29,572 nt of DNA from a virus: IMG/VR virus record IMGVR_UViG_3300023179_000375, positions 1 to 29,572 of that record; one strand, given 5' to 3'. Within the stretch, counting starts at the first letter, position 1, and every line of letters starts with the position of its first letter. A program made the position numbers and the translations under genes. Under the pieces are notes generated by a model. The model had not been told where the DNA came from, did no database searches, and worked only from the letters and a program-made list of their open reading frames with translations. This document shows, in pieces, positions 132 to 18,695 of the stretch.

Positions 132-1940
132 ATGCTCGGCTATAGCGCACTATCAGAAGCACCATTTTCTGCGCTGGCCGGAGGGGTTAGCCCGAACGTA
201 TCCGTCAACGTAACCGGAGTTCAAGCCTCTGGTGCAGTTGGTACTGCTACAGTCAACGCCGATGCTAATGTAACGCTAACTGGGGTTCAAGCTTCCGGGG
301 CAGTGGGTACCGTAGTAGTTAGCGCGGGGTCTGATGTTTCTGTCAGCGTAACTGGAGTTCAAGCCGCTGGTGCAGTTGGTACTGCTATAGTCAACGCCAG
401 TGCTAATGTAACTCTAACTGGGGTTCAAGCCTCTGGTGCAGTTGGTACTGCTACTGTATCTGGTGCATCAAACACATCTCTAACTGGGGTTCAAGCCTCT
501 GGCGCCGTTGGTACTGCTACCGTATCTGGTGCAGCAAGCGTAACGGTAACTGGAGTTGTTGGCACAACCCAACTAGGCACGGTCACATTCCCGGTAAACG
601 TTACTGTAAATCTAAGTAGCGTAGATTATGCTTGGGGGTCAGATGGTTGGGGTATCCTGCCTTGGGGTGCAGGTGTTGGCCTTTCTGCGCTTCTTGGAAC
701 TACCCAACAGGTGGCGGGTGGCGCAGCGGTTGTCAGCGTTACCGGTGTTAACGCTTCTGGACAAGTAGGCACACCTAGCTTCCAACTTGATGCAAGTATT
801 TCCGTAACCGGCCTAAGCGCCTCTGGTGTTGTGGGGGATGTTACTGTTGTGGCCGGGACTAATGTTTCTGTCACTGTAACCGGTATAAGCGCCACAACAT
901 CTTTAGGGTCTGTTTCTGTAGCAATAGACGCAGACGTAGTTGTGGCCAACTATGCTTGGGGTTCGGATGGTTGGGGTATTCTGCCTTGGGGTGCGGGTGT
1001 AGGCGCGGCTGGGCTAGTTGGAACCCCCAGCTTCCAGCTCGATTCGGTTTTATCCGTAACAGGGGTAAGTGCCACCGGCCAGATAGGAACCCCCACACTA
1101 CAACTAGATACTGTAGTGCTTGTTACAGGAGTAAGTGCTTCTGGTGTCGTAGGAACAGTACTTATATCTGCAGATGCAGAGGTAAATCCTACCGGCGTAA
1201 GTGCTTCTGGACAAGTTGGTACACCTAGCTTCCAATTAGATGCCGTAATAAACGTAACCGGAGTAACTGCATCTGGTAGTGTAGGCTCAGTAACAGTTAT
1301 TTTTGATACTAATGTATCTGTTGTAGGCGTTAGCGCATCAGGGGTAGTGTCATCAGTATCTGTAAATGCTGCCGCAAACGTATATCCGTCTGGCGTTTTT
1401 GCAACAGGAGCGGTGGGCACTGCGCAAGCCTCTATTGGAATAAATGTTCCTGTTACTGGTGTAGTGGGCACGGGAGTAATCAATTCCGTACAGGTAACAC
1501 AGGGTATCCTTATATCTGGGGTAAGTGCTACAGGAATAATCGGCACACCTTCGGTATCTGGTAGAGCATCCGTATCTGTATCTGGCGTATCTGCTTCTGG
1601 GGCAGTTGGGTCAGTAGTTGTCCAATTTCCGACAGTTGTATTGACCCCGGTAGTTGCCACAGCGTACCTAGGAAATGCAAACGTACAGGGTCCAGAAACA
1701 GTATATTTAACGACTTTAGTACAAATAAATGCGTATCTAGGTACCGTACAGTTTGATGAAAACGCCTACATATATGTGACTGGCGTAACAGCAGTTGGAT
1801 TAACCTCTAGGGTGCTGGTGTGGGGTACTATTGACGATGGGCAATCTCCGAATTATGTTACAGTATCATCTACACAAACACCGGGATTTACTTCAGTAAA
1901 TACAAGCCAATCACCCAATTGGGTTCAGATAGCCGCCTAA
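132..1940 (+). CDS. Repeat-built virion surface / tail protein
   Basis: 602 residues, almost entirely tandem units of about 22 residues with consensus VTGVxASGxVGTxxV; about 23 full or degenerate units can be counted from residue 24 to about 575. The alternation of small and beta-branched residues predicts a beta-strand-rich fibrous or stacked-sheet structure. Two identical 18-residue WG-rich inserts (YAWGSDGWGILPWGAGVG) interrupt the array. The C-terminus is different: WG-start, then two 'QSPNxV' motifs ending at the C-terminus, resembling the end of phage tail proteins. There is no signal peptide or membrane segment. It lies first in a row of tail genes, so a surface fibre or tail decoration role is inferred. 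AAGG sits about 8 bases before the ATG. No enzyme motif is seen. Confidence 0.75.
   Translation: MLGYSALSEAPFSALAGGVSPNVSVNVTGVQASGAVGTATVNADANVTLTGVQASGAVGTVVVSAGSDVSVSVTGVQAAGAVGTAIVNASANVTLTGVQASGAVGTATVSGASNTSLTGVQASGAVGTATVSGAASVTVTGVVGTTQLGTVTFPVNVTVNLSSVDYAWGSDGWGILPWGAGVGLSALLGTTQQVAGGAAVVSVTGVNASGQVGTPSFQLDASISVTGLSASGVVGDVTVVAGTNVSVTVTGISATTSLGSVSVAIDADVVVANYAWGSDGWGILPWGAGVGAAGLVGTPSFQLDSVLSVTGVSATGQIGTPTLQLDTVVLVTGVSASGVVGTVLISADAEVNPTGVSASGQVGTPSFQLDAVINVTGVTASGSVGSVTVIFDTNVSVVGVSASGVVSSVSVNAAANVYPSGVFATGAVGTAQASIGINVPVTGVVGTGVINSVQVTQGILISGVSATGIIGTPSVSGRASVSVSGVSASGAVGSVVVQFPTVVLTPVVATAYLGNANVQGPETVYLTTLVQINAYLGTVQFDENAYIYVTGVTAVGLTSRVLVWGTIDDGQSPNYVTVSSTQTPGFTSVNTSQSPNWVQIAA
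208..560. repeat. 66-bp tandem coding repeats
   Basis: The most DNA-similar part of the repeat gene. The units starting near 415 and 481 are in perfect 66-bp register and match at 49 of their first 52 bases (mostly synonymous changes), then diverge. Units at about 215, 282 and 349 carry the same core (GGAGTTCAAGCC or GGGGTTCAAGC). Later units keep the protein pattern but not the DNA, so this part looks like the more recent expansion. Confidence 0.85.
627..680. repeat. Copy 1 of a 54-bp direct repeat encoding a WG-rich motif
   Basis: Encodes YAWGSDGWGILPWGAGVG. The second copy, at 951-1004, is identical at 49 of 54 bases and at all 18 residues; the copies begin 324 bp (108 codons) apart. Confidence 0.9.
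951..1004. repeat. Copy 2 of the 54-bp direct repeat encoding a WG-rich motif
   Basis: Encodes the same 18 residues as 627-680 with five base differences. The pair brackets three to four 22-residue units and could recombine to delete or multiply that segment in frame. Confidence 0.9.
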
Positions 1941-4281: not shown

Positions 4282-4739
4282 TGAATATGCGCCTTAGCAT
4301 TGCCGCCTTAACTCTTAGCGCTTCTGCGCTTGTTGGTATTGCCGTAAATGAGGGGTATAGCCCTGTTGCGTATGAGCCGGTAAAAGGTGACGTGCCAACC
4401 ATTGGGTTTGGTACTACTGAAGGGGTTAAGCACGGCGACAAAATTACTCCAGAACGGGCTTTAGTTCGTTTACTTAAAGATGCGGACAAGTTTCAAACCG
4501 CGGTCAAGACCTGTGCGCCAGTGCCAATGTTTCAATACGAATTTGATGCGTATGTTTCATTAACTTACAATATTGGCGCTAAGAACTTTTGTAGTTCTAC
4601 GCTAGTACAAAAACTTAAAGCCGGGGATTATGCCGGGGCGTGTAAAGAAATTCTTCGCTGGGATAGGTTTAAGGGCAAACCACTCGCAGGTCTAACAAAA
4701 CGCAGGCAAAAGGAGTATGAACAGTGCTTGGGTTCTTAA
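4281..4739 (+). CDS. Endolysin, GH24 lysozyme family, probable SAR type
   Basis: 152 residues, the usual size of phage GH24 muramidases, which cleave the MurNAc-GlcNAc bond of peptidoglycan. Catalytic Glu is E24 (in NEGYS). The following Y31 and GDVPTIGFGTT stretch (D37, T40) matches the GH24 active-site cleft pattern, followed by EGVKHGDKIT, by YNIGAKNFCSSTLVQKL around 95-112, and by a C-terminal GLTKRRQKEYEQC. Residues 5-22 are a weakly hydrophobic Ala/Ser/Gly-rich segment directly before the catalytic Glu, as in signal-anchor-release endolysins; a cleaved signal peptide is the alternative. Its ATG overlaps the preceding stop, with no good Shine-Dalgarno, so it is probably translationally coupled. 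Rz and Rz1 follow. Confidence 0.93.
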   Translation: MNMRLSIAALTLSASALVGIAVNEGYSPVAYEPVKGDVPTIGFGTTEGVKHGDKITPERALVRLLKDADKFQTAVKTCAPVPMFQYEFDAYVSLTYNIGAKNFCSSTLVQKLKAGDYAGACKEILRWDRFKGKPLAGLTKRRQKEYEQCLGS

Positions 4740-5194
4740 CTAACAGATACATTTTGGGTGGATTGGCCGGGCTTGTAATGCTCGGTTTTGTCTATTTTAA
4801 AGGCATCAATCACGGCAAAGAAGTTGTCCAACAGAAGTGGGACGCGTATAAAGTAGAGCAAGAACGAGAAGTTCAACTGCTCAAAGACCAAGCCCGTGAA
4901 ACCGAACAAGCCTTTCAGAATAAAATAAACAAGATTCAAAAGGAAAAAGTCAATGCAAATCAGATTGCTACTACTCGCTATAACGCTCTCATTGACAGCC
5001 TGCGCAGCCGCCCCAAAACCCGTCAAGACCCAGTGCCCAGCGATTCCGGAAGTGGTGTGGGATGTACGGGTGCGGGATTGGCAAGGGGAGATGCAGAGTT
5101 TCTTGCTGGGTACGCTGCCGACGCAGCAAGGCTTCAAATTGCCTATGAATCATGCCGTGATGCCTACGAAGTAATTTATCATGGCGCTAAGTAA
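4724..5194 (+). CDS. Rz: Inner-membrane spanin (Rz-like)
   Basis: 156 residues. A short cytoplasmic N-terminus is followed by one membrane helix (about residues 8-25) and a long charged helical region (about 28-95) predicted to form a coiled coil in the periplasm, the typical i-spanin plan. Spanins fuse inner and outer membranes in the last step of lysis. The start is GTG at 4724, supported by AGGAG at 4711-4715; this start overlaps the endolysin end by 16 bp. The decisive evidence is a lipoprotein gene nested in another frame (Rz1). The 3' end overlaps the next structural gene by 14 bp. Confidence 0.88.
   Translation: MLGFLTNRYILGGLAGLVMLGFVYFKGINHGKEVVQQKWDAYKVEQEREVQLLKDQARETEQAFQNKINKIQKEKVNANQIATTRYNALIDSLRSRPKTRQDPVPSDSGSGVGCTGAGLARGDAEFLAGYAADAARLQIAYESCRDAYEVIYHGAK
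4953..5174 (+). CDS. Rz1: Outer-membrane lipoprotein spanin (Rz1-like), nested inside Rz
   Basis: 73 residues lying entirely within the Rz gene in a different frame. A signal peptide of hydrophobic residues (LLLLAITLSL) ends in the lipobox LTAC, with Cys17 the lipidation site, leaving a mature protein of about 57 residues. Rz1 proteins sit in the outer membrane and bind the periplasmic tip of Rz. AGGA at 4941-4944 is 8 bases before the ATG. The fully embedded arrangement is the same as in lambda and many phages of Gram-negative hosts, and is the best clue in the window to the host's envelope. Confidence 0.9.
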   Translation: MQIRLLLLAITLSLTACAAAPKPVKTQCPAIPEVVWDVRVRDWQGEMQSFLLGTLPTQQGFKLPMNHAVMPTK

Positions 5195-5540
5195 ACTCGT
5201 ATTTAAGCCCGGTATTAACCGAGACCAGACCAATTATGCGTCTGAAGGCGGCTGGTATTCGTGTGATAAAATTAGGTTTCGTTCCGGGTTTCCAGAAAAA
5301 ATTGGTGGTTGGCTGCGGTATACCGCTACAAGATTTATTGGTGTATGCAGAAGCTTGTTTAACTGGGTAACCGACGACGGCAACAACCTCTTAAGTATCA
5401 CTACAAACAATAAAGTATATGTAGAAGCCGGTACAAAGCTATTTGACGTAACCCCTATACGTTTAATTTTTGTACAAAATGCGCTATCCGGTGTTTCTTC
5501 TACGGGGCAGGTAGGTAATGTTACGGTGACTACTGTATGA
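5181..5540 (+). CDS. Conserved tail protein, N-terminal part of a split gene
   Basis: 119 residues. The start MALSKLVFKPGINRDQTNY and the following CDKIRFRSGFPEKIGGW are, as I know the family, the N-terminus of one long protein (about 600-700 residues) common beside tail genes in aquatic podovirus-like phages. Here the frame ends at TGA 5538-5540, just after 'FDVTPIR' and a 20-residue tail LSGVSSTGQVGNVTV that looks like one unit of the repeat protein at 132-1940. The next frame continues the family sequence. The two parts may act as two subunits, or a recent mutation may have split the gene. The start overlaps the end of Rz. Confidence 0.8.
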   Translation: MALSKLVFKPGINRDQTNYASEGGWYSCDKIRFRSGFPEKIGGWLRYTATRFIGVCRSLFNWVTDDGNNLLSITTNNKVYVEAGTKLFDVTPIRLIFVQNALSGVSSTGQVGNVTVTTV

Positions 5541-7099
5541 GTTTATTATCCGTTGATTCTGGCTCTAACCAAATAACTGTCACGATTACAAATCATGGCG
5601 CGCTTAATGGCGACTATGTAAATTTTGCTGGAATTGTTTCTGCATTGGGAAATATTCCTATTTCAGAGCTAAACGGCGACCACCTAATTTCTAATACCAC
5701 AACCAACACATTTACCATAACCACGATAACCAGAGCAACTAGTAGCGCTACATATAATGGCAATATTGTAGCTACGTTTGATATCCATTCCGGTAATGCC
5801 ACGTCTAGCTTCGGTTACGGCTTCGGTGCAGGTACGTGGAGTAGAGGCGCTTGGGGTTCTTCTACTGACGTACCTATTGTTTCTCCCCCCAGATTGTATT
5901 CTGAAGATAGATATTTTAATAATCTTCTATTCTGTATTCGGAATGGAGACATCTATATCTGGACGTACATAAATTCTGGGTCGTTCTTTGCCCGAGCAAT
6001 CCCTCTTGCGTTATATCCCGGAGCTAATAGTGTTCCGTCAATCGTAGGCAGCATTCTTTTCTCTCAGCAAGATGGGCACTTGATTTCGTTTGGGGGTACT
6101 AATTATCTGACCAATACGTACGACCCCCTATTGATTAGGTGGTCTAATCAAGACGAACCTTGGAACTTTGCCCCTACCCCCACAAATAGCGCTGGGTTTT
6201 TGCGGGTATCTAACGGTTCAGAAATTGTACAAGCATTAAGAACTCGCCAAGAAATTCTTGTATTTACTGATTCTTCACTGTATTCATTGCAGTTCTTAGG
6301 TACGCAAGATGTCTTTGGTCTACAACAGCTAGCAGATAACACGTCAATCATTTCTCCCGATGCCGCCGTCACAATTAACAACGTTACGTATTGGATGGGG
6401 GTGGATAAGTTTTACGTGTATAACGGTCGAGTTGATACGCTCCCCTGCACGCTACGCCAATACATTTTCCAAGACATTAACCGAGCCTGTCAGCCGCAGA
6501 TTGTTTCCGGTACTAACGAAGAATATAACGAAGTAATCTGGTTCTACCCGAGTGCAGACTCAAACGAAGTCAACAGATACGTAATCTATAACTACGTAGA
6601 ACAAATTTGGTATTACGGCACCATTGAACGTACCGCTTGGTTGGATACCCCATTGCGTTCATATCCACAAGGCACTGACACAACCGGCCTCATTTACGAC
6701 CAAGAACGCGGTGTAGACGCAGATGGTTTGCCTTTAGCGGCGTATATTTCTTCGGGTGACATAGACATTGAAGACGGCGACAAATTTATGTTGATTCGAC
6801 GCATTGTGCCCGACATAAACTTTAATGGCTCAACCTCGGCTAACCCCACGGCTGTTTTAACTGTTTCCCCAAGAAATTTTCCGGGGCAGGCGTATCAGAC
6901 AAACAATCTAGAAGGTACAGGGCTTAGTAAAAATGTGGTGCGTAGCGCATCGTCGCCAATTGACCAGTATACAAACCAAGTATTTGTGCGCGCTAGAGGT
7001 AGACAGTTTGCGTTTACCATTAGCTCTACCGCTTTAGGAGTTCAATGGCAGTTGGGGATGCCTAGAATTGATGCTAGACCAGATGGTACTAGGGGCTAA
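5537..7099 (+). CDS. Conserved tail protein, C-terminal part of a split gene
   Basis: 520 residues. The start ATG shares the bases ATGA (5537-5540) with the stop of the N-terminal part, and GGTGA at 5525-5529 may serve as its Shine-Dalgarno, so reinitiation is likely. The protein begins with a small beta domain (VDSGSNQITVTITNHGALNGDYVNF). A WG-rich turn (GAGTWSRGAWGSS, about 96-108) follows, then a long conserved beta-rich body with blocks DPLLIRWSNQDEPWNF, VQALRTRQEILVFTDSSLY, YWMGVDKFYVYNGRV and YVIYNYVEQIWYYGT. These blocks match the C-terminal three quarters of the undivided family. The alternating short strands suggest a propeller-like fold. Its role is structural, at the tail tube or tail hub, inferred from genome position; no enzyme motif is seen. 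Confidence 0.83.
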   Translation: MSLLSVDSGSNQITVTITNHGALNGDYVNFAGIVSALGNIPISELNGDHLISNTTTNTFTITTITRATSSATYNGNIVATFDIHSGNATSSFGYGFGAGTWSRGAWGSSTDVPIVSPPRLYSEDRYFNNLLFCIRNGDIYIWTYINSGSFFARAIPLALYPGANSVPSIVGSILFSQQDGHLISFGGTNYLTNTYDPLLIRWSNQDEPWNFAPTPTNSAGFLRVSNGSEIVQALRTRQEILVFTDSSLYSLQFLGTQDVFGLQQLADNTSIISPDAAVTINNVTYWMGVDKFYVYNGRVDTLPCTLRQYIFQDINRACQPQIVSGTNEEYNEVIWFYPSADSNEVNRYVIYNYVEQIWYYGTIERTAWLDTPLRSYPQGTDTTGLIYDQERGVDADGLPLAAYISSGDIDIEDGDKFMLIRRIVPDINFNGSTSANPTAVLTVSPRNFPGQAYQTNNLEGTGLSKNVVRSASSPIDQYTNQVFVRARGRQFAFTISSTALGVQWQLGMPRIDARPDGTRG

Positions 7100-7101
7100 T
7101 T

Positions 7102-7761
7102 ATGGGCATGATTAAATTTAAATCTCCTTCTTTGCCAATACCACATAGAATGTATGATGAAGGCCAACAGCACCAGCTTAACCGGTCCCTGCGTATTTAC
7201 TTTGAACAACTAGATTCCAGAACTCCAATTGAGCATGAGCTTTTTCAGGGCGGTTTGTTTAATGGGCAGGGAACTGGTTTGGTTATGCCATATGGTTCTT
7301 TTTATAGCACGCAAACGCAAACCGCCGCTAATACAACTACCGCATATGCCGTAACGCTAAACAATACTGATTTAAGTAATTGGGTAACCCTATCCAATGG
7401 GTCTAGACTTAACGTAGCGTACGACGGTATTTACAACTTTCAGTTTAGTGCGCAGCTATCAAACGACAGCAATGCTTCTATAGATATAAATATGTGGCTA
7501 CGCAAAAACGGCGTCAACTTAGCTAATACAAACTCTTTGTTTGGGCTTTCTGCAAGAAAAAGTCCGGGAGACCCGTACCATGTATTAGCTGCACTAAATA
7601 TTTTTGTGTCGCTAGCCGCTGGAGATTACATTGAGCTTTATTGGTCTACAACTAGTACAAGTGGAACTATAATATACGTGGCTCCCTTGGTTAGCCCCGA
7701 TAGGCCCGCTACTCCGTCGGTTATCTCTACACTTTCATTTGTATCTGCTCTATCTACATGA
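7102..7761 (+). CDS. Tail protein with C-terminal jelly-roll-like domain
   Basis: 219 residues. The N-terminal part (SLPIPHRMYDEGQQHQLNRSLRIYFEQ) is helical and polar. From about residue 60 the pattern 'YGSFYSTQTQTAAN...' then 'YDGIYNFQFSAQL', 'INMWLRKNGVNL', 'AALNIFVSLAAGDYIELYW' follows the strand order of C1q/TNF-like jelly rolls found in many phage tail proteins. AGGGG at 7090-7094 precedes the ATG by 7 bases; an in-frame ATG at 7108 is an alternative start. It follows the split tail gene by 2 bp and is presumably assembled near it. Receptor binding is possible but not shown. Confidence 0.75.
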   Translation: MGMIKFKSPSLPIPHRMYDEGQQHQLNRSLRIYFEQLDSRTPIEHELFQGGLFNGQGTGLVMPYGSFYSTQTQTAANTTTAYAVTLNNTDLSNWVTLSNGSRLNVAYDGIYNFQFSAQLSNDSNASIDINMWLRKNGVNLANTNSLFGLSARKSPGDPYHVLAALNIFVSLAAGDYIELYWSTTSTSGTIIYVAPLVSPDRPATPSVISTLSFVSALST

Positions 7762-11594: not shown

Positions 11595-14500
11595 ATGCCG
11601 GTAGTCTACATTCCTAATGTTGGGAACGTGTCGTTTCCTGACGATATGCCTATGGATAATATTGTTTCTGCAATTAAAGAAAATATTATTCCGCAATTTG
11701 AAAACGCCGCAAAAACAAAAACCGCTGAATCAGCGATACGAGAAACACCTTCAACAACTAATGTAGTAATTCAAGGTGCGTCTGTAGCAAAACCAGTACA
11801 GAACATTGCTGACATTATGGGTCTTGAACAAGAAGAACCCGCGATGTCGAAGGCATCGGATGCCGCCACAATTTACAAAAATCTTACAGCCGCCAAGAAA
11901 GGCGAGCTGCCGTCACTTACGCCCCCCACCGCCCCTAAAGCCACATTATCTTCAGTTCTATCGGGATTGGGTACCACAGCTAGAGAATCTATTCCTGCCA
12001 CCGTTGCTGGTTTAAAGGCGGGGGTAGGTGAAGCGGGGGCGGCAGTGGCCGGTAAACTTGGACAAGACGAACTTGCTGCTGTGCTCCAAGACGCTGCAAA
12101 ACGTGCCGAGAAGCGAGGGGCACAAGCAGAATTTAGAACCGATATTTCTACGCCTGATATTGAAGACCCAACCCTTCGCGGGATATATGGCGGTGTTCAA
12201 AGTGCAATTAAAACGGCACCAAGTTTAGCTACAGCTTTAGTTGGCGGCACGGGGTTCGGTTTACTTGCCGCGGGAACACAAGTTGCTGCGGAAGCGTTTA
12301 ATAAATATATGAACCGTGGCGCTGACCCTAGTGAAGCAGCTTTGGGTGCATTAAGTGAAGGCGGCGTAGAAATAGTAACTGAACTTGTCCCTATGGGATT
12401 TTTGGTTAATAAGTTTGGTAAGACCGGCGCCACAGAATTTATTGCGGGTCTGTTGTTCAGAGAACTTCCCGGAGAGCAAGCGGCTACTCTTGCGCAGGAT
12501 GCAATTGATACGGCTATTGCCAATCCGGATAAAACTTGGGCGGAGTACTGGAATGAACGCCCCGCCGCTGCATATCAAACTTTAATTAGCACGCTTACGC
12601 AGGCTGGGCTTACTACTGCCGTAAGCAAAAGCACGCAATACATTACGCAAAAGCTAAACGAAGCAAAAACTACGGGTGCACCTGCTACTGAAACAGAAAG
12701 GAAAAAAGAACCGTTTGTTGGGGAAGAACCTACACAAAAAACTAAGCCAGAACCAGCGGGTCCGCCACAGCCCACTACTATTGAAGAGTTAATGCAGACT
12801 TCTACCCCGCCGCGTCCGTCGGTGTTTGAAGGCAACGAAGTAGATTTTGACGCAATAAATCGCCAGCTTTTAGAAGAAGGGTCAATTAGCCAAGAGCAAT
12901 TTGACGAGTTTGCAAAACAAAAAGCGCAAAAAGAAGCTGAAGACGAAGACGAAGCAATAAACCGCCGTTTGCGGGAAGCCAGTCGTGAGTTTGATGAGGA
13001 GGACGGTGGTGTACCTGAACCTACTCTTGTAACCCGTGGCAAAAAGCAATATACGCCTCTTGAGGCTGCTAAGTATGACCTGACCGCAGCGAAGCGTAGA
13101 TACACAGATTATGCAGGTAAAGTCCGAGGTGCTTTAGAGGCCACGGGCATGACTATTGACCAGATTCCAGACACCACAAAGGCTGTACTGGATGGGTTAA
13201 AGAATAAGATTACTGACGCCCAAACTAAATACGATTCCCTACTTGAAGATGAGCGAAGTGCCGCAGAGTTTAAAAACAAACGCAAAAGCACGGAAGAACC
13301 CAAAGTTCAGGTTCCGGATAATGACACTATTCTTAAAGATTTACAGGCTAAAAAGGAAGAGCTTCTTACCCCCGCCGGTAAGCCGCCAATGCCCAAATCC
13401 GCTGCCCGCGCCAAATACGATGAAATCCAAAGTGCTTACGACGAAATAGAACAACTCAAAGCGCAAAACGAAGAAATTTCAGCGAAGCCCGGTGCAGACG
13501 TTATTCGTTTAACAAAACTGTTGGGACCTAAATTATACGGTTCGTTAGAGAATCTACCTAGAGTTACAGTTAAAGAACTGTTTCAAAATTCGTTTGACGG
13601 TATTAAACCGCTTTTGGAATCGGGCGCCATTTCCGAAGGAAAAATTAATGTCGGTATTAACGAAAAAAATAGAACCATTGAAATGGTTGATAACGGCACG
13701 GGTATGGCACCAAACATACTTGCTACTAAGTTTTTAGAAATTGCTGGTACTCAAAAAGAAACCGAAAGTGCGTCTGGCGGTTTGGGTATTGCGAAAATGC
13801 AGTTTTTATTTGGCAATAAAAATATTAAAGTCATTACTGTCCGTGATGGAAAAGTAAGTACGCTAGAGACTACTGGGCCTGATTTAGAAAAAGCGCTTAG
13901 CAATCCGGACGTTGCCCCCAAAATTACGGTCGAACCGTGGGATGAAGCTGTAGCTAAAAACAAACAACTACAAAATTTATTTCCAGACAATTCTGGCACG
14001 TACGTAAAAATTGGGGTTCCGGAAACATTTCATAATTTTGATACCGGTAAGGATGAGCCTATAGAACTTGATAATTGGGCGCATAGTTACCCCTCTCTGC
14101 ATACTAGCCCGTTATTTAGAAATGTTGATGTTAATTTTCATACGCTGCGCGATAAAGCTACTCTTTTTGGTGCTTTAACTGACCCCTCTAATAATTATTC
14201 ATACTCAGAATCAATACCAGTAGGCAAAAACTTCCCTATTGATGAGCATTCACCCCTCACTACAATTAAATTTGGTTGGGGTGACGCGGTTATGTATGTA
14301 ACGCGAGAGCCGGAACAATATGAATGGAACCAAAGTAGAGTACATGTTTTATCTAATGGTATCTATCAATTTACACAAAAAATAGACAAAGGCCCTAAAT
14401 ATAATTTTTATCTTGACATTCACCCTAAAGTTAAGGCAGAGGACCCCGGTTACCCATTTGACCTAAATCGTCAACGATTTTCTCCGGCGGTTGCTGGTGA

Positions 14501-17500
14501 TTTTGATAAAATTTTTAATTATGTAAAACAGCTATACGACGTTTCAGACCTTCAAAATAACACTACAAATTACGGCACGGTTAGATATTTAGAACCTTCT
14601 GGGCCAACCCAGCCGGAAACACTTTCGCCCCCATTACCTGCTATGGAAGTACCCACGAATTTACTTCGTCCGGGCGACTCAATGGCTGTAATAAACGGTA
14701 AGTTGGAAATTAATGGGCGCCCAGTACCTGAAATAACCAGCGCGGAAGCGTCTAGTTTTAAGATTGACTTAAATACGCTAGTTATTCCACAGGACCAACT
14801 TCGTACTGATGCGCCGATTCTTAATGATAATCTTTTTGTTAAAAACGAAGGGCTTTCATTTACTGAATTAATGGAAGATAGTTTTGGCCCTAGGTTTTAT
14901 GGCTATATGCGGGAATTGGGCGAAGCTTTTATGGAGCTTCGTGATGTAGTAGCTAAAGAAATGGGGTACGATAAATACAATTCTTATAAAGAAGTATCAC
15001 TTGATAAAGAAGTGATAGGTATTAGTTTTGATATAGAGTATCGTGGTGTTAGTACAAGAGTGCCTTTTTGGGGTATGTATTTAAACCCTGCCGCCGTTTC
15101 GTATGGACTTAAAAAGTTTAGTGTTGCCGTTTCACCAGAACGAGCAGCTTCTGCTATGGTTGGCACTATGGTCCATGAGCTTGCGCACCATGAAGTACGC
15201 AGCCATAATGAAGAATTTCCCGCAGAAATGCAAAAGATTCTTGCATTTTTAAATGTACCTGAAACTACAAATTTTGATTTTGCAGCGTTTAATAGAAAGG
15301 TGCAGCAGCTTGTTGCGGATAACGCTGACATTCAGTCTGAAATGGAACGAGTGTTTAATGAAGGAGTAAGTAATGACAATTTATCCCCTATTGGAATCCG
15401 CCTCAAAGAAGCTGGCGCCTACCAAACCACAGATGGACGCACTCCTTCAGACTTGGGAGACCTTGGGAGTACAGCAGCGAGCTACCAAAGAATATCTAAC
15501 GAGCCTAAAGCAGGCGAGGGAGCTATTAAGTCGCAGCAAAGACGTACAGACGTTCCTAAATCGGGCAAGGCAAAACCCCCAATAACTTATAAGCATATGG
15601 ATAAATTGCTTAATAATCTTAAGCAAACTCCAGTTAACGCCTTAAAAGCAGTTAATAATCTTATCGACATCATGGCCGATAGGGCGGAAGTCGGCTTTTG
15701 GTCTAAGGTTTTACCGCTTCTCCCCGACTGGGCGGTGCGTTCAAGACTACCCAAGCAGTTAGTTAAGAACGGCGATAAGTTTGAGCTAAAGCCGCTTCTA
15801 CCTCAGTTTGATGTGTATGACCGCGCATTAGCCGCGTTTGAACGCACGCAAAAAGAGCTTGAGGGGGAAATAAAGCGAGTTCTTGATTTGGGTAAAAGAC
15901 TAAATAATAAAACCCATAAGGCTTTGAGCATGCTTCAGTTAGAAGCTACAAGCAAAGAAATTGACCCGGACACAGACACAAAAGACCCCTACTTAAATCA
16001 ACTGTGGGCGCAGCTACAAAGCATGCCTGATGGACAACAGGCGATTGCTGTATACCGAGAACAACGAAATTTCTATAAAAAAATTTACAATAAGATTCGC
16101 AATATCGCTGCAAAAAATATTTACACAGCGCTCATAAGAAAGGGTACCACACCGTCAGATGCGGCTGTAAAAACCAAGGAAGTTCTTGACCGAGATATGC
16201 CACTGCGTAAGGGGCCGTATTTCCCTATGAGCCGCTTTGGTGAGAATTGGATTGGTTTTAAGATGAAGAATGATGCGGGGAAGCTTGAAAAAGGCTTTCT
16301 CATGTTTGAGAGCGGATTTGCCCGAGACAGAGTATTAAAGGACGTTGAAGCTGCCATTCGTGCAGAAATTCGTGAAGAGCTTGGGCCGAATGCAAGTGAA
16401 AAAGATATTGAAGATGTAATAGTCAATGAAGAACGGTTGCAGGCACGGGACGGATTTAGCAATCTTCTTAACTTTGTATATGGTCAAGAAAACGCATTAA
16501 GCAAGGCGCGTGACGTTATTGGTGATTCTTTTGAAGAAGCTATTGCTGGTCTACAGAAACGCGGTGGTGTTGGGTTATCCGTAGCTGAAGCAGAAAAGAT
16601 GCTTACTCAAGCCAAGAATGATGCTACGGGTACTATTCAACAACTGCTTATCCAGCTTGCTCCCGCTAATAGTTTGAAGAAGCTATTTGCAAGACGTAAA
16701 AAAATCGCCGGTGCCGTTGCCGACTCCAACCGGTCCTTTGCAGTTACTGCCACTAAACAGATGAACTATCTGGCCAAGCTCATGCACGGCGGTAGTATGG
16801 AAGCAGCACTTATTGCAGCGAACGAAAACCTCAAGTATCTCAGCCCACGCAATCAGATTTTTGCTGGAATGATTATTAGGGAATTTGAGCTTCGGATGGA
16901 GTCAAATCTTTATCCTACATCACAGAATTCAATTATCCAAGCCCTGTCAGGAACAGCGTTTGTCTATCAGATGACCTCAATTGCTTCGGCGATTAGAAAC
17001 GTTATGTACATGACTTGGAATGGTCTTGGTGTGTTGGGGTCGAAATTGGGCATTGCAGAAACATCTGCGTTAATGTCTAAGTACATTGCGGGGTTTAGCC
17101 GAGGGTTCTACGCAAAAGACCGCCCTGATGGCGTTATGGGGTTTGGATTTCCTAGTTTGCTCTATGATAAAAACTTGAATCCGTTTGTGCGGGAAGGGTT
17201 AGAGCGCGCCGTAGCTGAAAATAAATTAAATATTTCTCAAGCATATGATTTGGCTGAGATTAGGCGCACTCCTTCCGGTATTCCACTCATGTCATTGCGG
17301 GGTGTTCTCGACGTTCCTCGCCGTGGCGTAAATATGCTGGCCACTGTGCTTCACAACTCTGAGCGCATGGGTCGAGAAGTTCTTTGGGCCACCGCGCTAG
17401 AAGGCCGCGCTAAACAGTTGTTCAAAGAAAAAAATACGGACGGCTCAAAACGGTATACGGCTCAGCAAATTGCAGACATGGCGTATGAGTTTGCGGATGA

Positions 17501-18695
17501 GTATGCCGGAGAACGCAGCGCTGGAACTTTCGGATATCAACGTCGGGGCCGTGCGTTTAAGATGCCACTACTTAATCTTTTCTTAAAGTATAAGTCGGCA
17601 CCAATTCAGGTTGTATTCCAACAATTTGAAGCATTGAATACCCTTGCTTGGCACAGCGGACGCCGTTGGATTAGAGAAGAACGGCAGCGTGTTATTGATG
17701 ACCCACAGCTGGGGCCAGAAGCGGCTAAAAAATTTGATAGGCTAATTCAGAAACAGAGGTATGAGCAGTTTAAGTATTTAGTTTTCATCAACGCTATTGC
17801 ATTCTTGGCTATGGGCCTTGAAGGTACGCCGTTCTGGTGGCTCCTTTCCCGCATCGCTGGGTTCTTCCTACGACAAAATGACCCTAACGAAAACAATCCG
17901 GAAGCAGTTGATTTTGACCTAAATTTGTTCCTTGAAAATTATGCTGCAGACCAAATGAACCCGGAGATTGCGCGTATGTTAATGCGCGGCCCGCTCGCTG
18001 GTGCACTCAACGTATCTCTTGTAGAACAAATGTCGCTAAACCCGCCGTCTATGTTCTTACAAGGGTGGAGTGAAACGGCTGATAAATCTGCAGAAGACGC
18101 CCTTCAAAAAGCGCAAAACTTCTTTTTAGGCCCCGTATTTGGGGGGCTTCCTACACAAATTGCCCGTGCGTATGATGCAGCCAAACGCGATACTATGCGG
18201 GGTGTAGAAATGCTACTACCTCCCGGCATTCGTACTCCCCTAACTACTGCGCGTATCAAAGAAGAAGGCTTCACCACTATGAAAGGTGAGGTTGTTGTCC
18301 CAGCAAATAAAGTTACTAACAGCGACTTGTTTATCACTGCACTTGGCTTTTCTCCTGAAGATTATCGTCGATTCCAAGCGGCTAAATTTAAATTGGCAAC
18401 TATTGCAGCAAAGATTGCCCTGCAAAAACAAGAAATCTATGATGACTTTTGGCTTGCTGAACAGCTGCCTGCCGGGGAACGCAAGACCGAAGCAGTTGCT
18501 AAAGTATTTACGCGAAAAAATAATTTTAACAAGGTGTATCCATCCGAGCATATTAGCGATAAAGATATGGCTAATTCTTTGATTAGGCGAAGAAAGCAGC
18601 AGCAATCAGAGCAGGCTCATGGTGGGTTTACTTCGAATGAAAAAATGTGGCCTATCATTGAAGACCGCACCAAATTTGGAAAAATGGAGCGATGA
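11595..18695 (+). CDS. Giant virion-associated polyvalent protein: GHKL ATPase + HExxH zinc peptidase + LPD38-like region
   Basis: 2366 residues, last gene of the late block. Residues 1-30 (PVVYIPNVGNVSFPDDMP) match a short N-terminal domain seen in large phage virion proteins. Two hydrophobic Gly/Ala segments lie near 208-230 and 260-290; residues 345-625 are charged and partly coiled. Residues 630-1015 form a Bergerat-fold ATPase: N-box E661, N665, D668 (ELFQNSFDG); G1 box D699-N-G701-T-G703; G2 box G728-G-L-G731; then a transducer-like domain. A zincin follows with H1194-E-L-A-H1198 and a possible third ligand H1204. Helical regions (1335-1840) lead to an LPD38-like region at about 1990-2170 with a membrane-like stretch at 2059-2085. 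The genome position is that of the T7 gp16-type ejected core protein, so delivery into the host is inferred. Targets of both enzymes are unknown. Confidence 0.85.
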   Translation: MPVVYIPNVGNVSFPDDMPMDNIVSAIKENIIPQFENAAKTKTAESAIRETPSTTNVVIQGASVAKPVQNIADIMGLEQEEPAMSKASDAATIYKNLTAAKKGELPSLTPPTAPKATLSSVLSGLGTTARESIPATVAGLKAGVGEAGAAVAGKLGQDELAAVLQDAAKRAEKRGAQAEFRTDISTPDIEDPTLRGIYGGVQSAIKTAPSLATALVGGTGFGLLAAGTQVAAEAFNKYMNRGADPSEAALGALSEGGVEIVTELVPMGFLVNKFGKTGATEFIAGLLFRELPGEQAATLAQDAIDTAIANPDKTWAEYWNERPAAAYQTLISTLTQAGLTTAVSKSTQYITQKLNEAKTTGAPATETERKKEPFVGEEPTQKTKPEPAGPPQPTTIEELMQTSTPPRPSVFEGNEVDFDAINRQLLEEGSISQEQFDEFAKQKAQKEAEDEDEAINRRLREASREFDEEDGGVPEPTLVTRGKKQYTPLEAAKYDLTAAKRRYTDYAGKVRGALEATGMTIDQIPDTTKAVLDGLKNKITDAQTKYDSLLEDERSAAEFKNKRKSTEEPKVQVPDNDTILKDLQAKKEELLTPAGKPPMPKSAARAKYDEIQSAYDEIEQLKAQNEEISAKPGADVIRLTKLLGPKLYGSLENLPRVTVKELFQNSFDGIKPLLESGAISEGKINVGINEKNRTIEMVDNGTGMAPNILATKFLEIAGTQKETESASGGLGIAKMQFLFGNKNIKVITVRDGKVSTLETTGPDLEKALSNPDVAPKITVEPWDEAVAKNKQLQNLFPDNSGTYVKIGVPETFHNFDTGKDEPIELDNWAHSYPSLHTSPLFRNVDVNFHTLRDKATLFGALTDPSNNYSYSESIPVGKNFPIDEHSPLTTIKFGWGDAVMYVTREPEQYEWNQSRVHVLSNGIYQFTQKIDKGPKYNFYLDIHPKVKAEDPGYPFDLNRQRFSPAVAGDFDKIFNYVKQLYDVSDLQNNTTNYGTVRYLEPSGPTQPETLSPPLPAMEVPTNLLRPGDSMAVINGKLEINGRPVPEITSAEASSFKIDLNTLVIPQDQLRTDAPILNDNLFVKNEGLSFTELMEDSFGPRFYGYMRELGEAFMELRDVVAKEMGYDKYNSYKEVSLDKEVIGISFDIEYRGVSTRVPFWGMYLNPAAVSYGLKKFSVAVSPERAASAMVGTMVHELAHHEVRSHNEEFPAEMQKILAFLNVPETTNFDFAAFNRKVQQLVADNADIQSEMERVFNEGVSNDNLSPIGIRLKEAGAYQTTDGRTPSDLGDLGSTAASYQRISNEPKAGEGAIKSQQRRTDVPKSGKAKPPITYKHMDKLLNNLKQTPVNALKAVNNLIDIMADRAEVGFWSKVLPLLPDWAVRSRLPKQLVKNGDKFELKPLLPQFDVYDRALAAFERTQKELEGEIKRVLDLGKRLNNKTHKALSMLQLEATSKEIDPDTDTKDPYLNQLWAQLQSMPDGQQAIAVYREQRNFYKKIYNKIRNIAAKNIYTALIRKGTTPSDAAVKTKEVLDRDMPLRKGPYFPMSRFGENWIGFKMKNDAGKLEKGFLMFESGFARDRVLKDVEAAIRAEIREELGPNASEKDIEDVIVNEERLQARDGFSNLLNFVYGQENALSKARDVIGDSFEEAIAGLQKRGGVGLSVAEAEKMLTQAKNDATGTIQQLLIQLAPANSLKKLFARRKKIAGAVADSNRSFAVTATKQMNYLAKLMHGGSMEAALIAANENLKYLSPRNQIFAGMIIREFELRMESNLYPTSQNSIIQALSGTAFVYQMTSIASAIRNVMYMTWNGLGVLGSKLGIAETSALMSKYIAGFSRGFYAKDRPDGVMGFGFPSLLYDKNLNPFVREGLERAVAENKLNISQAYDLAEIRRTPSGIPLMSLRGVLDVPRRGVNMLATVLHNSERMGREVLWATALEGRAKQLFKEKNTDGSKRYTAQQIADMAYEFADEYAGERSAGTFGYQRRGRAFKMPLLNLFLKYKSAPIQVVFQQFEALNTLAWHSGRRWIREERQRVIDDPQLGPEAAKKFDRLIQKQRYEQFKYLVFINAIAFLAMGLEGTPFWWLLSRIAGFFLRQNDPNENNPEAVDFDLNLFLENYAADQMNPEIARMLMRGPLAGALNVSLVEQMSLNPPSMFLQGWSETADKSAEDALQKAQNFFLGPVFGGLPTQIARAYDAAKRDTMRGVEMLLPPGIRTPLTTARIKEEGFTTMKGEVVVPANKVTNSDLFITALGFSPEDYRRFQAAKFKLATIAAKIALQKQEIYDDFWLAEQLPAGERKTEAVAKVFTRKNNFNKVYPSEHISDKDMANSLIRRRKQQQSEQAHGGFTSNEKMWPIIEDRTKFGKMER
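15373..15585 (+). other. Possible overprinted 70-residue ORF inside the giant gene
   Basis: In the +1 frame relative to the giant gene, an ATG preceded by AAGGAG (15361-15366, spacing 6) opens a 70-residue frame with a plausible amphipathic helical composition (LQTWETLGVQQRATKEYL, LKQARELLSRSKDVQTFL). It sits exactly over the linker between the zinc-peptidase and the following helical region, where the giant frame reads as disordered Gly/Ser/Thr-rich sequence. It may be a real small protein, a relic of a former gene boundary, or chance. Confidence 0.25.

Follow-up and report, generated by a model that had tools for sequence, protein, structure and literature searches.

The window (i.e., the whole 29,572-base virus record IMGVR_UViG_3300023179_000375) harbored a tail nozzle gene divided into two overlapping ORFs, and this split was real and old, being a stable gene fission common to a whole phage clade. 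Quite probably, the fission was brought about by insertion of a tag-encoding segment, with reinitiation of translation at the second ORF; the two resulting chains would then co-assemble, and, more speculatively, the tag may serve in docking. The presence of the tag on three unrelated protein families was the most surprising part of the analysis, and it reached beyond the original finding.

Layout and family of the split gene pair

ORF1 (119 aa) and ORF2 (520 aa) were, as judged from profile matches, two parts of one phrog_3287 protein: the profile covered both ORFs consecutively, with ORF1 residues 4–94 aligned to profile positions 6–97 and ORF2 residues 177–519 aligned to positions 154–524 (Table 1). 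ORF1 displayed 67–77% identity to its counterparts in 14 split relatives, and ORF2 displayed 67–68% identity to those in L001 and L002. The gene coordinates, the ATGA overlap, the upstream TAA, and the ORF1 tail given in an initial annotation of this DNA were all recovered as such, and its assertion that the family is normally one protein held, since both ORFs matched a single profile in order and 135 homologous loci (some of them from the same contig) were unbroken.

Table 1. Features of the repeat protein gene, the split nozzle gene, and the downstream gene in the window
Feature	Position	Strand	Remark
602-aa protein of 22-residue VTGVxASGxVGTVTV repeats, with QSPNW-type C-terminal end	132–1940	+	Period of 22
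ORF1, N-terminal part of tail nozzle (residues 1–94 conserved) plus C-terminal tag	5181–5540	+	phrog_3287, E 1.1e-10
18-residue tag at the ORF1 C-terminus, LSGVSSTGQVGNVTVTTV; a single unit of the 22-aa repeat type	5484–5537	+	Unit profile, 25.3 bits
TAA closing the ORF2 frame upstream	5516–5518	+	Leaves 19 nt of the −1 frame open before the ORF1 stop
GGTGA, Shine–Dalgarno (SD)-like, inside tag codons, 7 nt 5′ of the ORF2 ATG	5525–5529	+	Duplex with 16S 3′ end, −7.4 kcal/mol
ORF2, remainder of nozzle protein, from inserted FCCH-like tip domain to C-terminus	5537–7099	+	phrog_3287, E 6.6e-49
ATGA, ORF2 start overlapping ORF1 stop	5537–5540	+	Identical in 15/15 split sequences
Gene directly downstream of nozzle, with another C-terminal domain, untagged here	7102–7761	+	Homologue tagged in L002 and other phages

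Two further regions of the window were recorded: (i) the ORFs at 4724–5194 and 4953–5177, located just after the lysozyme gene, looked like a nested spanin pair composed of a small lipoprotein ORF (MQIRLLLLAITLSLTACAAAP) within a membrane-anchored ORF, and the 3′ end of this putative pair overlapped the start of ORF1, which had almost no SD; and (ii) a 2366-aa virion-type ORF at 11595–18695, in which a GHKL-ATPase-like stretch (IEMVDNGTGM...GGLGIAK) and an HExxH stretch (VHELAHHE) were recognized by eye.

Identity of the nozzle and position of the break

The phrog_3287 protein was a podovirus-type tail nozzle of the P22 gp10/T7 gp12 kind, because both the homologue profile and the model of an unbroken homologue matched solved nozzles. 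A profile of 55 unbroken homologues hit the Pa223 nozzle (9nwi chain Y; E 3.3e-25) and VP1 nozzle gp16 (E 8e-11). The fold was read from the unbroken homologue L099 as a stand-in for the split protein: its model (pLDDT 86.5) was matched by Foldseek to 9nwi_Y (E 1.6e-26, TM 0.63/0.78), and also to SU10, VP1, T7 gp12, Sf6 gp8, and P22 gp10, while ORF1 modelled alone, from a shallow 12-row alignment, gave an uninformative structure (pLDDT 35). Homologues in named phages carried the annotation of stabilization or constituent proteins; the highest nozzle identity to them was 37%, and the three records inspected (DSL-LC04, CRP-902, and MinM2) each had one unbroken gene.

The SU10 nozzle is composed of a platform, a seven-blade propeller, and tip (nozzle) domains inserted between blades 2 and 3 (PMC9509320). 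The break fell in the loop corresponding to residues 98–105 of L099, between strands 93–97 and 106–108, and the E1_FCCH-like domain began just after this loop. By analogy with the solved nozzles, ORF1 would thus supply the N-terminal platform strands and the first blades, while ORF2 would open with the tip insertion. In the unbroken nozzle homologues L082 and L044, the DITPxR motif was likewise followed by inserted domains, but different and in-frame ones, and the loop at this site thus appeared to be a general insertion point. An apparent repeat unit in L082 (13.9 bits) was rejected, because it was a different in-frame inserted domain.

Distribution and age of the split

A search with ORF1 disclosed 14 IMG/VR contigs besides the window in which the gene was split at the same point with the same architecture; together with the window, these made up ~11 lineages, at least 10 of them other than that of the window. 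The nearest relatives, L001 and L002, were included, with the same ATGA. The split was therefore no peculiarity of a single phage. In a 65-sequence tree, all 12 rows with the split formed a single clade (SH-aLRT 100) with one change of state. No relative of ORF1 turned up when bacterial genomes were scanned, a DNA pattern derived from the first three split relatives matched these three only, and no intermediate between the unbroken and the split gene was found.

Decay of the gene, or a sequencing or assembly error, might be suspected because the window comes from a single metagenomic contig, but the probability of this was practically negligible: the 14 other contigs came from other assemblies, both halves were under purifying selection, and an indel error was excluded because near-identical split copies (L086/L087, L091/L092, and L093/L094/L096) came from different assemblies.

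Insert and ORF1 tail

Aligned with unbroken relatives, the split protein had gained ~17 residues after the DITPxR motif and ahead of the inserted tip domain. From the Arg94 codon to the ORF2 ATG, the split gene had 74 nt versus 24 nt in L099, and the insert was out of frame because the net gain was 50 nt; the earlier proposal tying the break to insertion of a repeat-type unit agreed with these values. All split ORF1s ended in one to three units of VTGVSATGxVGSVTV (degenerate in L090), and two to three units with a 20–22-residue period were present in L088, L089, L093, and L095. Position profiles were used for scoring, the repeat-unit HMM being insensitive to single units. The window ORF1 tail matched the 22-residue repeat with the score given in Table 1, reached by 0/2000 shuffles, and thus the likeness already noted from the letters was beyond chance. 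Across the split members, ORF1 tails scored 18.7–32.8 bits (0–1/2000 shuffles as high), with L090 at 7.4 bits (31/2000), while the same profile applied to 132 unbroken homologues gave a median of 0.5 bits, and none of these 132 had the same tail in an unbroken gene. The tail had been quoted as LSGVSSTGQVGNVTV; this sequence was present, but three more residues (TTV) preceded the stop, which is of consequence since the shared tag includes them (see below). The pN/pS ratio was 0.15 for ORF1 codons 1–94, and for the tail it was 0.55 in frame versus 1.2–1.4 in the two other frames, which argued that the tail is translated in the ORF1 frame.

Expression of the two halves

The two proteins are likely made via termination–reinitiation at the ATGA. 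This was the best mechanism because there was no slippery site, the −1 frame was short, and an SD-like motif preceded the ATG. GGTGA, GGAG, or a strong purine-rich SD-like match was located just 5′ of the ATG in 9/11 split lineages; GGAGTGA was found just before the ATG where the tag was divergent, and the SD-like motif was kept even where the tag differed (L093, GGAGTGAG). Pairing with the 16S end amounted to −6.4 to −8.1 kcal/mol in 9/11 lineages and was weak in L090 (−3.1) and L095 (−4.4), and one quarter of internal ATGs paired at least as strongly as the ORF2 median. For ATGA pairs, termination–reinitiation coupling has been demonstrated experimentally and requires such short distances (PMC6728339, PMC10666635), and genes joined in this way encode subunits of the same complex more often than expected (PMC10666635). 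The suggestion in the initial annotation that reinitiation keeps both parts expressed was the best reading of the conserved ATGA and SD-like motif.

Programmed −1 ribosomal frameshifting, fusing ORF1 and ORF2 as in other phage tail genes, would make use of the −1 frame of ORF2 and of the short and conserved overlap, and the earlier calculation that a fused product needs a −1 shift within about 20 bases was right, given the 19-nt open overlap. Such fusion was nonetheless very unlikely: no X XXY YYZ slippery heptamer was present in the open overlap of any of the 15 split sequences, the −1 frame stayed open for 19–76 nt before the ORF1 stop across split members with no conservation of length and was always closed upstream, and the ATG and SD-like motif were conserved exactly at the positions that reinitiation needs.

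The tag on unrelated proteins

The ORF1 tail was, on sequence comparison, a C-terminal tag common to two unrelated families: (i) the protein of the gene directly downstream of the nozzle and (ii) a zinc-ribbon-like protein. The 18-residue tag, ending exactly at the stop, also terminated the downstream-gene protein in other phages (e.g., ...PIFVSVTGVKAVGRIGTVTVTTV-stop); a scan of IMG/VR for DNA encoding GxVTVTTV-stop gave 63 stretches, nearly all of the downstream-gene family, and with a profile built from downstream-gene tags only, ORF1 tails were the next matches among 10,061 ORF ends. The zinc-ribbon-like protein (CDRCGF...CPECWEPDQPQL...QWGWNPVG) ended in VGTVTVTTT-stop, and with a 12-residue profile from zinc-ribbon C-termini only, the 45 best-ranked among 9,346 other C-termini were those of ORF1, downstream-gene, and classifier-missed zinc-ribbon proteins, without any other family. 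The tagged proteins in the split genomes examined were the zinc-ribbon protein and ORF1, plus the downstream gene in L002.

The downstream gene (window 7102–7761; L002 5561–5857; L088 5923) kept its N-terminus (KFRAPALPLPxxxYNEGQQ..LRxYFxQLDS), while its C-terminus was swapped between two types, one short and tagged, the other a longer domain that ends in SVILTINLVSAIP. The zinc-ribbon-like proteins (L338:16219–16647, L328:1362–1763, L330:6250–6609, L358, L368, L369, and L372) constituted a small family without a PHROGs match, and the VGTVTVxxT tag ended almost all members.

The tails of ORF1 and of the downstream gene in L002 had a 19-nt stretch (TAGGCAACGTTACGGTGAC) in common, and each overlapped the following gene by ATGA, so the tag plus restart site looked like a module for the ends of different genes. 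The conserved end might then be mainly an RNA signal for translational coupling with the peptide as a by-product, all the more because the identity of the L002 tails was reached by codon resampling in 17/20,000 trials; selection for the SD accounts for part of this DNA likeness. An RNA signal as the main role was still unlikely, since zinc-ribbon and downstream genes used different codons for the same peptide and ended in a TAA or TAG that did not overlap a next gene.

Relation of the tag to the 22-residue repeat protein

The initial annotation described the unit as foreign-looking and as matching that of the 602-residue repeat protein; the unit likeness stood, but the segment was better described as a C-terminal tag that two other families carry as well than as a foreign unit from that protein. 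Transfer of one 22-aa unit from the repeat protein into ORF1, whose tail would bind the repeat protein by unit-on-unit stacking, was rather doubtful, although several observations spoke for it besides the unit similarity and the multiple units with a regular period in four split members (see above). The repeat protein was present in the split contigs G002, G003, G004, G007, and G010, which reach far enough upstream, and among contigs of at least 35 kb, a full repeat protein was found in 6/6 with a tagged downstream gene versus 6/32 with an untagged one, a co-occurrence that was not independent because the contigs are related. Against this transfer, ORF1 tails stopped exactly where the tags of the other proteins do (VTVTTV-stop), unlike internal units, and zinc-ribbon tags occurred in phages where no full repeat protein was detected. 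The idea that the repeat protein was the sole source of the imported tag was weakened accordingly, two other families being tagged, one of them also in phages without a detected repeat protein. Relatives of the repeat protein were found in some unbroken phages as well, and this protein may be the partner or the source of the tag. In the 75-kb contig G021 (L342:7200–9113 and L341:8319–9284), repeat proteins, tagged downstream-type genes, and zinc-ribbon proteins were each present twice, as if a late module had been duplicated or two phages had been joined.

Proposed origin of the two-piece nozzle and comparison with known systems

Fission of the nozzle gene by a tag insert would have been one event in the clade ancestor, in which the loop following residue 94 gave way to a short tag-encoding segment whose stop codon overlaps an ATG; the insertion point would be the entry to the inserted tip domain, this being one clade with the same point throughout. 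Recombination with another, tagged gene of these phages may have supplied the segment, and the insertion may have come first or the tag may have been gained after the fission. ORF1 would then be translated to end in the tag, and the ribosome would restart at the overlapping ATG, aided by the GGTGA inside the tag codons, to yield ORF2 in coupled amounts. The two chains would presumably co-assemble into a two-piece nozzle, with the tag positioned beside the tip domain, at its edge; there it might serve, most likely, as a β-strand docking tag, docking being the function that we infer for it. More tentatively, and on the doubtful side, the strand tag (VTGVxATGxVGTVTVxxT-stop) could be a common docking code on the zinc-ribbon protein, the downstream tip/fibre-like protein, and the nozzle, whose spread cut the nozzle gene and thereby made the nozzle two-chained; such a code would probably be directed at the 22-residue repeat protein or at some other partner common to the tagged proteins.

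The conserved split illustrates how a core virion protein can become two subunits and stay functional when the insert itself brings the restart signal. The occurrence of one tag on three unrelated proteins suggests, moreover, that a large group of environmental podovirus-like phages has an assembly or docking signal that had gone unrecognised.

Stable fission of phage virion or enzyme genes is known, in which one ancestral protein has become two conserved neighbouring genes; the present break differed in carrying a C-terminal tag common to unrelated proteins of the same phages. The split protein resembled the nozzles P22 gp10, T7 gp12, SU10 gp17, and Pa223 (phrog_3287; packaged DNA stabilization protein) in profile and predicted fold, but all these solved relatives are single chains, while here the protein was divided where the tip domain begins, and a tag terminated the first chain. 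With the ATGA coupling systems (PMC6728339, PMC10666635), the pair shared the 4-nt overlap, the SD-like motif before the restart, and the expectation of one complex; unlike them, the pair here came from one ancestral protein, and the restart signal lay inside a repeat-type tag.
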